From assembly GCA_022827885.1 (NCBI GenBank), contig JAJEIP010000011.1:1-64000 (forward strand): a stretch of 64,000 bases of DNA, read 5' to 3'. The position numbers and the translations under genes were made by a program. The stretch comes from Candidatus Poribacteria bacterium (lineage in GTDB: Bacteria > Poribacteria > WGA-4E > WGA-3G). Below are positions 53,087-58,174 of the stretch, piece by piece (position 1 is the stretch's first letter; every line of letters starts with the position of its first letter). Under the pieces are notes generated by a model that was not told where the DNA came from, made no database searches, and worked only from the letters and a program-made list of their open reading frames with translations.

Positions 53087-54445
53087 TTAGATTGAATAAA
53101 TTGTTCGACTTGCTTCGTCAAATTCGGGTTTAAAAGGATCTGTTGAGAGGTAAAGAATCTGATACGGTTCATAAAGTTGAATGTAGCTCCAATTGACACC
53201 GCAGAGGACTTTTCCCTCGTTAACTTTCTTGATAAATTTCCCGCGGAATTTCGCTCGGGTCCGTTCAGGTGGAAATTGCTCAGCATGGCGAATCTGTTCA
53301 TCTCTAACAATTCGCTCGGTTTCTGATCGGTTTTCAAGGGCGTAGTAGAGACTTTCGCTCTGACGGACGTTGTGGTATTTTAAATCTAAGTGTTTTACCT
53401 GTGGGGCATCCCATTCAAGTCCACGCTTTGTGAGGTAGGTCTGCAACCACTTCCACTTAATGACCCAGTCCAATTCTCTGTCCAACTGCATCGGATCGCT
53501 TTCCAAGCAGGTCAGGACGTATTCCCAGCGTGCCATTATTTGGTTCGTCGTTGAATCGGATTCGGCTTGTTCCAGATATCGCTTTGCGCATTCTAAATAT
53601 TGCCACTGTAGTTCGACAGCAGTCAGTCGCTTTCCATTTTGGAGTTCGATGGGATGTGTACATGTAATATCGTCGGAAATATCACGAATCGCTTTGACAG
53701 GATTGCGGAGTGCGAAGCGCTGCTCAATGAAGTTATCTTCTATCATGCGGAGGATAATACCGGTTGTCCCTACCTTCAAAAAAGTCGAAAACTCGGACAT
53801 GTTGGAATCCCCGACGATGACGTGTAAGCGTCTGTACTTTTCTCGGTCGGCATGGGGTTCATCGCGTGTGTTGATAATCCCGCGTGCCGTTGTTGTACCG
53901 ATGGAAATTTCCTCTCGGATGTGTTCGGCACGTTGCGAAATTGCGTAGTAACCCCGATAACTCGGTTTGATTTTTCCGGCGCCTGCGAAAACCTGTCGCG
54001 TTACAAAAAAGGGGATCAGCTTCGATGCCAACTGGCGGAAATCCACATGTCGTTCCATCAAATAATTTTCGTGGCATCCATAAGTATTTCCGGGGGTATC
54101 CAAATTGTTTTTAAAGATAGAAATCTTTCCATAGAACCCGTCGTTGCGCATGCTCCGTTCCGCAGTGCTGGCGAGTCGTGTAATAATGCGTTCGCCGGCT
54201 TTATCGTGAGCGACGAGTTCAGTAACATCATCGCATTCAGGAGTCGCGTATTCCGGGTGACATCCGATGTCTTGGTAGAATCTGGCACCGTTTTCCAGGA
54301 AGACATCGGGATACATTCTCCCAGCGACGATTTCACGGAAAAGGTACATTACGACGTTCTGAACGGTGAGGGTCTTTCTACGCGGGGCATCAGGGGTCCA
54401 GATGATCCCAAATTCAGTTTCTAATCCGTAAATTCTACGTTTCAT
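53087..54445 (-). CDS. pafA: Pup ligase PafA
   Basis: A 452-residue glutamine-synthetase-fold ligase that joins the Pup C-terminal glutamate to substrate lysines using ATP. RIYGLETEFGIIW carries the Mg-binding Glu pair at the N-terminus, NTRDEPHADREKYRRLHVIVGDSNMSE is the conserved core and ILYLSTDPFKPEFDEASRTI the C-terminal domain. It lacks the Dop insertion loop. Start ATG follows CCGCAAGGTAAATTAAAAAA, the recurrent leader. It is the last gene of the proteasome locus. Confidence 0.93.
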   Translation of the reverse strand: MKRRIYGLETEFGIIWTPDAPRRKTLTVQNVVMYLFREIVAGRMYPDVFLENGARFYQDIGCHPEYATPECDDVTELVAHDKAGERIITRLASTAERSMRNDGFYGKISIFKNNLDTPGNTYGCHENYLMERHVDFRQLASKLIPFFVTRQVFAGAGKIKPSYRGYYAISQRAEHIREEISIGTTTARGIINTRDEPHADREKYRRLHVIVGDSNMSEFSTFLKVGTTGIILRMIEDNFIEQRFALRNPVKAIRDISDDITCTHPIELQNGKRLTAVELQWQYLECAKRYLEQAESDSTTNQIMARWEYVLTCLESDPMQLDRELDWVIKWKWLQTYLTKRGLEWDAPQVKHLDLKYHNVRQSESLYYALENRSETERIVRDEQIRHAEQFPPERTRAKFRGKFIKKVNEGKVLCGVNWSYIQLYEPYQILYLSTDPFKPEFDEASRTIYSI

Positions 54446-56196: not shown

Positions 56197-56394
56197 CTAC
56201 TGCCCTCCTCGTTGGATGTAGTTTTCGACGAATTCCTGTGAGTCTTCTTCCAAGATTTCATCGATTTCGTCAAGAAGTGAGTCTAAGTCTTCGACGAACT
56301 CCTCGTCCATTTCGCTTGATTTGACATTCAGTTCAATCTCTTCGGTTTCATCGACAGGAGGATTGACCTGTTCCTGTTGTTTTTCAGTCGACAT
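56197..56394 (-). CDS. pup: prokaryotic ubiquitin-like protein (Pup/UBact type)
   Basis: A 65-residue acidic, disordered protein whose C-terminus is ENYIQRGGQ. The terminal Gly-Gly-Gln means Dop must deamidate Gln65 to Glu before PafA can attach it. The helix that binds the ATPase coiled coil is EEFVEDLDSLLDEIDEILEE. The QRGG-Q end and phylum fit the UBact variant described for Gram-negative lineages. There is only one lysine, Lys25, outside the N-terminal tail. AAGGA precedes the ATG. Confidence 0.93.
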   Translation of the reverse strand: MSTEKQQEQVNPPVDETEEIELNVKSSEMDEEFVEDLDSLLDEIDEILEEDSQEFVENYIQRGGQ

Positions 56395-56421
56395 GATGTT
56401 CTGTTCCTTTTAACCTGAGCA

Positions 56422-56623
56422 TTTCTATAAAAATCTATAGAAATCTCGGTTTGCACGCCCCTTTGGAGCATGGTGAAACCTACAAAGTTAGTGCCCAGAC
56501 ACTAACGCTCTTAGCTTCCGAGTGTCCTCACAGGGTCTGGGTTCGTCTCACTCGCGTATGAACCCATCGCAGTAGAACCGACAGGGTTATTATCGGGTGT
56601 GCTTGGTTTTTACACGATGCTAC
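56422..56623. other. structured leader between dop and pup
   Basis: This 200-base gap has several perfect pairings: TTTCTATA/TATAGAAA (56422-56443), GTTAGTG/CACTAAC (56487-56506), TGGGTTC/GAACCCA (56538-56566) and CCGA/TCGG (56578-56596). CATCG-CAGTAG (56565-56575) and CGATG-CTACTG (56615-56625) are complementary in 1-2-1'-2' order, an H-type pseudoknot. It would be the pup 5' leader on the minus strand. No protein is encoded. Confidence 0.55.
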
Positions 56624-56672
56624 TGGATACGGTAGAGGGGAATTGAACCCCCGAAACGCCTACGTTTACCGC
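56624..56672 (-). ncRNA. tRNA-like element overlapping the dop stop
   Basis: Minus strand GCGGTA (56672-56667) pairs with TACCGT (56634-56629 side). Inside are a small hairpin AACG-TAGG-CGTT and a perfect T-arm, GGGG-GTTCAATT-CCCC, whose GGTTCAATTCC fits the tRNA/tmRNA B-box. CCA occurs at 56626-56624. There is no D or anticodon arm. It resembles the 3' end of tmRNA, but the rest of a tmRNA is not in place. Confidence 0.4.
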
Positions 56673-58174
56673 TTTGATCGGAGTTTTTTAACGAGTTCGT
56701 CTGCTGTGCAGTTGTTCAGCAACTCCCCAACGATCTGTTGGGTGCCAAAATGCGGACGATCCATCATAATTTTATCAAAGCTTCTTCGATCTTTACCAAG
56801 AAAAATCATTGAGTTCCAACTTGCGCTGTAAATGTGATTTGGAAACTTCCGTAAACAGGTCCCCCGAAAATATGCACGGGTATCCACGGGCGGATAGTGC
56901 ATCGCGTGCACAATCTCTTCGTGGTTGAGCAACCGTTTCACATGTCCGTTTTTCAGCAATCTAATGTAAAGTCCTTTGTCGGGACGGATATCGTGATACT
57001 GTAAGTCAAGCATTTGGACGTGCGCGTCCGTCCATTGGTATCCGTGTCGTTTGCGATACGCCTCTATTAATTTCTTTTTTATGATCCAGTCGAGGTGTTG
57101 ACTGAGCCGCATCGGATCGATTTCTAAGTTGTCAAGCACATATTGCCATTTTTCGAGAACATCTTCAACAACTGGGGTCCGCTCCTCGGTTGTGAGATGT
57201 TGTTGTGCGAGTTTGAGATACGCACGCTGGACTTGTATCGGTGTCCACTGCTCGCCATCTGCGAGTTCTATCTGATTTTTGCACGACAGGTCTCGTGAAA
57301 TACTTTTTATTGCCGCGACGGGATCCTTTAAACCGAATTGTTTGCCGACAACTCCTTTCTCAATCAACTGAAGCACTATGGAGGTAATACCAACTTTAAG
57401 ATAGATGCTGAGTTCGGACATATTAGAATCGCCGACAATAACGTGCAAACGTCGATAGATTTTGTCATCAGCATGCGGTTCATCGCGCGTGTTAATCAAA
57501 GGACGATTCACCATAGTGCTGAGGCCAACCTCTTTCTCAAAAAAATCGGCGCGTTGAGAAATCTGATAGTCTGTTTCGCGACTTCCGTTTTCTGCCCCGA
57601 CTTTACCGCTACCTGTGATAATAATACGGGTAACGAGGAACGGTGTCAACCCATCAACAATCGCATCAAACGGCACTTTACGGGACATAAGATAGTTTTC
57701 ATGGGAACCGTAGCTGTGCCCTTTGTAATCGGTATTATTTTTATAGATGATAATTTCTTGGTTGTCAAGCAAAAGGCGTTCAGCGGTTACCCTACTGACT
57801 TCCAATATTAATTCTCCCGCCTTTTCGTAGAGCAGTAGGTCGCGTGCGTTGGCACATTCCGGTGTGCAATACTCCGGGTGGGCATGGTCCACATAATAAC
57901 GCCCCCCGTTTATCAATATATCATTGACGACACTGTTTGTGTCCGCCTCGCTGATAGGTGTGTCCGCCTCCGCGAGAAACCCACGAGCGTCCATCAGGGG
58001 ACTTTCTTGTTCATAGTCCCACGTGACAGAAGAAGTCGCGCTCGGAGTATCACCCCTTGAAGTTTTATAGGCGTTAACTACCAAGGTGGACGCAGCAACC
58101 GGATCTTGCTCGCGGGCATTTTTGACTGAGATACCATACTCAGTCTCTGTTCCCATTACTATTGGTATTTCCAT
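56666..58174 (-). CDS. dop: Pup deamidase/depupylase Dop
   Basis: A 502-residue paralogue of PafA that deamidates Pup-Gln and removes Pup from substrates. IVMGTETEYGIS is the N-terminal Glu motif. The Dop-specific loop (TSRGDTPSATSSVTWDYEQE) and DARGFLAEADTPISE distinguish it from PafA. NTRDEPHADDKIYRRLHVIVG is the shared core. Gln-ended Pup in the same locus requires this enzyme. The stop lies inside the tRNA-like element. The start is 22 bases after mpa. Confidence 0.93.
   Translation of the reverse strand: MEIPIVMGTETEYGISVKNAREQDPVAASTLVVNAYKTSRGDTPSATSSVTWDYEQESPLMDARGFLAEADTPISEADTNSVVNDILINGGRYYVDHAHPEYCTPECANARDLLLYEKAGELILEVSRVTAERLLLDNQEIIIYKNNTDYKGHSYGSHENYLMSRKVPFDAIVDGLTPFLVTRIIITGSGKVGAENGSRETDYQISQRADFFEKEVGLSTMVNRPLINTRDEPHADDKIYRRLHVIVGDSNMSELSIYLKVGITSIVLQLIEKGVVGKQFGLKDPVAAIKSISRDLSCKNQIELADGEQWTPIQVQRAYLKLAQQHLTTEERTPVVEDVLEKWQYVLDNLEIDPMRLSQHLDWIIKKKLIEAYRKRHGYQWTDAHVQMLDLQYHDIRPDKGLYIRLLKNGHVKRLLNHEEIVHAMHYPPVDTRAYFRGTCLRKFPNHIYSASWNSMIFLGKDRRSFDKIMMDRPHFGTQQIVGELLNNCTADELVKKLRSKR

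Follow-up and report, generated by a model that had tools for sequence, protein, structure and literature searches.

An ORF-less IS607/TnpB-family element with a tRNA-like RNA domain between dop and pup of a Candidatus Poribacteria genome, a candidate leader of pup

The segment between dop and pup in a Candidatus Poribacteria genome is likely to be an ORF-less copy of an IS607/TnpB-family element that was deleted at its left end, is probably immobile, and has been retained as a cis-acting leader of pup. Its family assignment is shown by common ends and dispersed copies, and intact members of the family insert precisely after AGGAG, between the Shine-Dalgarno (SD) sequence and the start codon. 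In this study the window is the whole stretch of 64,000 nucleotides that was analysed (contig JAJEIP010000011.1, positions 1 to 64,000). On its minus strand dop (58174-56666) and pup (56394-56197) are separated by a 271-nt gap, and pup is followed by the proteasome subunit genes and a further gene of Dop/PafA type; we assigned these names from the sequences, and they match those given in a preliminary description. The second Dop/PafA-family gene (53087-54445, minus), 3' of the proteasome subunit genes, is probably pafA. The features of the locus are:

56666 to 58174, minus strand: dop, whose last codons and stop codon derive from the element as the result of a deletion fusion, judging from the dop ends of relatives
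56401 to 56677, minus strand: element remnant, ORF-less, IS607/TnpB-family, left end deleted, with the right end ...TTAAAAGGAACAG at 56401; dispersed homologues have the same right end
56629 to 56672, minus strand: tRNA-like domain (acceptor-like stem, D-like hairpin, T-arm), based on covariation and on identity in the orthologue of genome G030
56570 to 56625, minus strand: three-way junction, with stem CAGUAG/CUACUG around two hairpins with A-rich AAAAACCA-type loops, based on covariation
56519 to 56565, minus strand: GGGUUC/GAACCC hairpin (covariation) and H-type pseudoknot, in which loop CGAGUG can pair with CACUCG at 56524-56519
56401 to 56504, minus strand: right-end region with hairpins, matching TnpB elements L070 and L073 at their right ends, a probable omega-RNA scaffold
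56197 to 56394, minus strand: pup, the host gene directly 3' of the element, with its start codon 6 nt past the right end

RNA structure of the segment

The 5' domain is arranged like a tRNA minus the anticodon arm, comprising an acceptor-like stem, a D-like hairpin and a T-arm with a UUCRANU-type loop. The preliminary description had reported a T-arm and a 6-bp acceptor-like stem overlapping the dop stop (TAA, 56668-56666, minus strand). Both were located on the minus strand with covariation support: the T-arm, GGGGG-UUCAAUU-CCCCU, at 56652-56636 (extended to 6 bp in other copies), and the stem, GCGGUA/UACCGU, between 56672-56667 and 56634-56629. The CCA also noticed there corresponds to 'UCCA' at 56627-56624 (minus), after the acceptor-like stem. 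The same description found no D arm, which proved mistaken, as a D-arm-like hairpin, AACG-UAGG-CGUU with loop UAGG, is present at 56666-56655 (minus). The acceptor/T stack, the UUCRANU T-loop and the D-like hairpin, with their covariation support, together form a mimic of the tRNA elbow.

The 276-nt segment folds better than its shuffles (z = -3.0). In an alignment of 24 copies, standard pairs occupy 97.1% of pair cells, versus 90.2% in shuffled and 31-43% in slid alignments, and double-change cells number 74 versus 25 in shuffles. RNAalifold, run unaided on these copies, recovered nearly the same helices, preferring local hairpins around the pseudoknot. With distant copies added, in an alignment fitted to the structure and so biased towards it, 32 of 37 pairs were changed on both sides (172 cells versus 41); in the distant copies the stems are mostly rewritten while the T-loop persists, usually together with a GG within or close to the D-like loop. 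The covariance check proposed earlier thus gave a positive answer, with compensatory changes backing the helices across 24-33 relatives. The hairpins that had been described ahead of pup are present, several of them further 3', and the pseudoknot strands CGAGUG/CACUCG are pairable in all alignment rows, yet nearly invariant, so that covariation speaks neither for nor against the pseudoknot itself.

No Rfam family was found in the window at gathering threshold, a full-length copy gave chance-level matches only, and the loci with related elements contained no family at threshold except ordinary tRNAs. The mascRNA/menRNA, which differs from the window domain in being eukaryotic and having a further arm, is released by RNase P. 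It too is a small tRNA-like fold inside a longer transcript, and its family (RF01684) matched 56629-56672 weakly (15.4 bits, E 3.6, far under the gathering score of 42.5). With its 6+6 bp acceptor/T stack, its T-loop and the D-like hairpin, the tRNA-like part may recruit RNase P or other enzymes of tRNA processing. That enzymes of this type would then cut the dop-pup transcript or mature the element RNA is suggested by the topology, and we regard this whole step as a rather unlikely possibility.

The tRNA-like domain was also observed without the rest of the core, two to three times within about 9 kb, at loci L218 (3694-3836, 8505-8649 and 12607-12702, minus) and L219 (171-304 and 3810-3952), which belong to other genera (G082, G083) and to a region that also has an integrase-like gene.

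A dispersed element and its autonomous relatives

A search of 60 relatives showed that the segment is dispersed across one Poribacteria genus, with at most 9 matches per genome; in many relatives the match is restricted to the dop end and the sequence diverges beyond it. In its complete long form the element measures about 430-440 bp and is ORF-less. Within the genus a covariance model retrieved 33 strong copies, and it gave weaker matches in sister genera of the same family. All named records with the core motif are Candidatus Poribacteria, in a search that may omit records very near the window's own genome. Phages and plasmids had no DNA similarity to the element, and a pattern search of viral contigs gave no match. 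Four copies in genome G005 are about 99% identical among themselves, which points to recent spread and leaves the mobilising enzyme unspecified.

The left end of about 55 bp is common to full-length ORF-less copies, autonomous TnpA+TnpB elements and TnpB-only elements, and the 3' end of about 200 nt of the long form aligns with that of the autonomous elements, with predicted structure in common. The TnpA of the latter has Resolvase and MerR domains, as an IS607-type serine recombinase. IS607 membership is supported both by ends in common with an element carrying such a TnpA and by insertion without target duplication at a short motif. The window copy is without the left end, and its shorter right end matches the TnpB loci L070 and L073. 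The structured right end terminates at the element boundary and is common to tnpB elements, in keeping with a TnpB omega-RNA.

An intact autonomous TnpA+TnpB element is found in the window's own genome (contig C18), behind AGAGGAG and 10 nt ahead of an ATG. The TnpB, at L073:3061-4248 (minus) and at G000:C18, has a DPG motif, a glutamate placed six residues ahead of the first zinc-finger position and, as read from the alignment, no zinc-finger cysteines, which have been lost; the best solved relative of the TnpB searched was the TnpB-like protein L79. The DPG motif and displaced glutamate are characteristic of the Fanzor-related IS607 lineage (PMC10711439), of which this TnpB, minus the cysteines, is a variant. 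Intact ORF-less members most likely depend for their movement on the serine recombinase TnpA, acting in trans, and their right end may serve TnpB as a guide-RNA scaffold. AGGAG, the target, would then be the TAM, as the insertion sites suggest, and the start region that follows it would be the guide.

The elements resemble IS607/TnpB transposons (PMC10711439) in having autonomous relatives with serine recombinase TnpA and a TnpB with DPG motif and displaced glutamate, in inserting at a common dinucleotide (AG here) without duplication, and in their conserved structured right end; ISXfa1, for comparison, uses GG and has a GGG TAM (PMC10711439). Unlike those elements, the window copy and its kin are ORF-less, have a structured core in addition and insert behind SD sequences. 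Among the matches listed, a search of the open-access literature returned nothing directly relevant on a link between IS607 and Shine-Dalgarno sequences, on IS607 or miniature elements in Poribacteria, or on a transposon-borne tRNA mimic.

A second ORF-less kind (L069 in G030:C60, L074 in G010, L075 in G030, L076, L115 and L125) has the same right ends and a different core without the tRNA-like part. These elements sit between rplF and rplR and between fabG and acpP, preceding rplR and acpP. Since two different cores are combined with the same right ends, no single role can be assigned to the core. Between the left end and tnpB, the TnpB-only elements L114, L117, L118 and L120 have a leader, GGCGAGGA...UCCUCGCC, that looks structured and may form a pseudoknot; it lies directly after a promoter-like sequence, ahead of tnpB, and the leaders of L114 and L117 had no Rfam match at threshold.

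Insertion between Shine-Dalgarno sequence and start codon

Wherever the left end is present, its left flank is SD-like (AAGGAG or variants). A script placed the right end 2-12 nt ahead of a start codon in 28 of 36 copies, and inspection by eye added about 4 more; L057 runs into N, and L050 and L216 are exceptions. As a rough control, the fetched loci contain 164 AAGGAG hexamers, of which 37 stand ahead of an ORF start; this suggests that the bias towards the interval between SD and start codon exceeds a hexamer preference alone. The host genes, named by us from their sequences, include rplU, rpmB, rpsT, rplV, nuoD, trxA, superoxide dismutase (sod), cytochrome oxidase III, a microcompartment shell protein and pup. 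Empty sites were found in at least 29 relatives at rplU (AGAAAGGAG/TAATATTCAAAAATG) and likewise in at least 29 at sod (AACAGGAG/GCTATTTTTAAATG), and the elements of G011 and G003, respectively, are inserted exactly at the slash.

Such an insertion raises the question of how the host gene is translated. Roughly half of the copies have ACUAACAG as their end and lack a ribosome-binding site (RBS), so a replacement RBS is not a general solution. Copies ending in ACUAACAG or ACUAAAAG before rplU, rpmB and rpsT leave no obvious RBS near the start codon, and translation there therefore needs splicing, SD-independent initiation or structural help. Terminal pairing of the left end GTTCCTAAA with the right end TTTAGGAAC, considered as an RNA device joining SD and start, was rejected, as many copies break the pairing uncompensated.

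Constraint at pup and the competing explanations

The dop-pup interval is without the element in most members of the genus. The pup leader of relatives reads, for example, TTAAAGGAGAAAATCATG, and its counterpart in the window is GGTTAAAAGGAACAG/AACATCATG. In G033, G034 and G017 (L027, L028, L078), dop is followed by a gene that has the appearance of a DNA adenine methyltransferase instead of pup. In the window the left end was lost when a deletion joined the element to dop, and as a result the copy probably cannot move. The G030 orthologue has the same dop fusion and is 96.8% identical over the element (268/277) and 100% identical over the tRNA-like part (48/48), while third-codon identity between the two is 79.1% for dop, 87.9% for pup, 84.6% for prcB and 78.9% for the next gene. 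As the element exceeds the third positions of its flanking genes, the comparison argues for selection in place, and purifying selection on the structured RNA at pup is supported by this one orthologue pair. Among other orthologue pairs, acpP agrees weakly and three are without extra constraint, so extra constraint was rejected as a general rule. Moreover, the last bases of the right end contain an RBS-like AAAAGGA, whose AGGA, 10 nt before the ATG, may provide a new RBS for pup. The element looks domesticated as the pup leader.

The suggestion of a regulatory leader of pup, made in the preliminary description, survives in this changed form: the copy is strongly constrained in the pup 5' UTR, but it did not originate as a pup leader. 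A riboswitch or leader evolved specifically for pup control would explain why the segment is conserved in that position; the same RNA, however, precedes some thirty unrelated genes, and the pup of most relatives is without it. As an origin this is refuted and the proposal is highly improbable, a later regulatory role belonging to the explanation that we prefer. Even less credit can be given to a tmRNA, whole, permuted or two-piece, as had also been considered. The segment resembles tmRNA (RF00023) in its T-arm and acceptor-like stem without anticodon arm and in the pseudoknot nearby, and an 18-nt stretch gives a weak tmRNA match (9.6 bits). This match is limited to the T-arm, with similar T-arm-only matches elsewhere in the genome; ARAGORN, and Rfam at gathering threshold, found neither tRNA nor tmRNA in the window, and the segment, without a tag-coding part, is a dispersed element present in many copies per genus before unrelated genes. 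Furthermore, the genome contains a separate, full-length standard tmRNA (RF00023, E 5e-77, 188.5 bits), one of the two observations named at the outset as counting against the idea, which is practically excluded.

The remaining alternatives concern the function of the core. Core and right end could be a guide (omega) RNA and nothing else, conserved through TnpB binding, with the tRNA-like part just stabilising or maturing the RNA. The right end is indeed common to TnpB elements, the RNA would terminate exactly at the element boundary, an intact TnpB is encoded in the genome, and the G005 copies point to recent movement. Against this, the window copy is conserved without a left end, where selection for transposition is unlikely, while autonomous elements do without the core and others have a different one; we find this explanation unlikely, though worth serious consideration. 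A self-splicing intron of unknown type, as in IStrons, would restore the spacing of SD and start codon on excision from the mRNA. Group B IStrons, found in Firmicutes and Fusobacteria, combine a group I intron with IS607, and they insert after GG/AG and end in CGG/CAG (CAG in CsISt1) without target duplication (PMC4227781); they are the nearest precedent for a structured RNA within an IS607 element, with ORF-less copies known. Insertion is exact here too, and many copies precede the essential rplU, rpmB and rpsT without an RBS at the right end. Unlike IStrons, of whose insertions 58% are intragenic (PMC4227781), our elements occur in Poribacteria and showed no intragenic copies, and a search of Rfam with a full-length copy, allowing E values up to 10, gave no group I intron, while no family reached threshold elsewhere. 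The core is conserved in the window copy despite its missing left boundary, and autonomous elements without it likewise lie behind SDs, which makes an intron improbable. A ribosome-recruiting, IRES-like leader, whose tRNA mimic would contact the ribosome at starts with a displaced SD, fits the covarying tRNA-like fold and the essential genes preceded by copies without an SD near the start codon. However, core-less autonomous elements likewise stand ahead of host genes (e.g. a ferredoxin gene), and the AGGA of the window copy gives it an RBS-like motif of its own, so that we consider this role decidedly improbable.

Retention of a left-end-deleted element as a cis-acting leader thus remains our preferred explanation for the dop-pup copy. 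More broadly, the SD itself may be the target motif of this TnpB-associated transposon family, and the tRNA-elbow-mimic RNA of the ORF-less members may keep insertions in essential operons harmless and then open to domestication as host leaders, as at pup; we advance this tentatively, judging its chances to be not quite even. If true, SD targeting would give the family an entry site ahead of a large fraction of genes. In the libraries and papers searched, neither a mobile element landing between SD and start codon, including those of ribosomal-protein genes, nor a covariation-supported RNA that is a minimal tRNA mimic without Rfam match has been described. The elements make it testable how essential genes are translated when their RBS has been displaced by about 430 nt, and whether TnpB systems use ribosome-binding sites as TAMs, and the dop-pup copy is a candidate for an element turned host leader in a proteasome operon.
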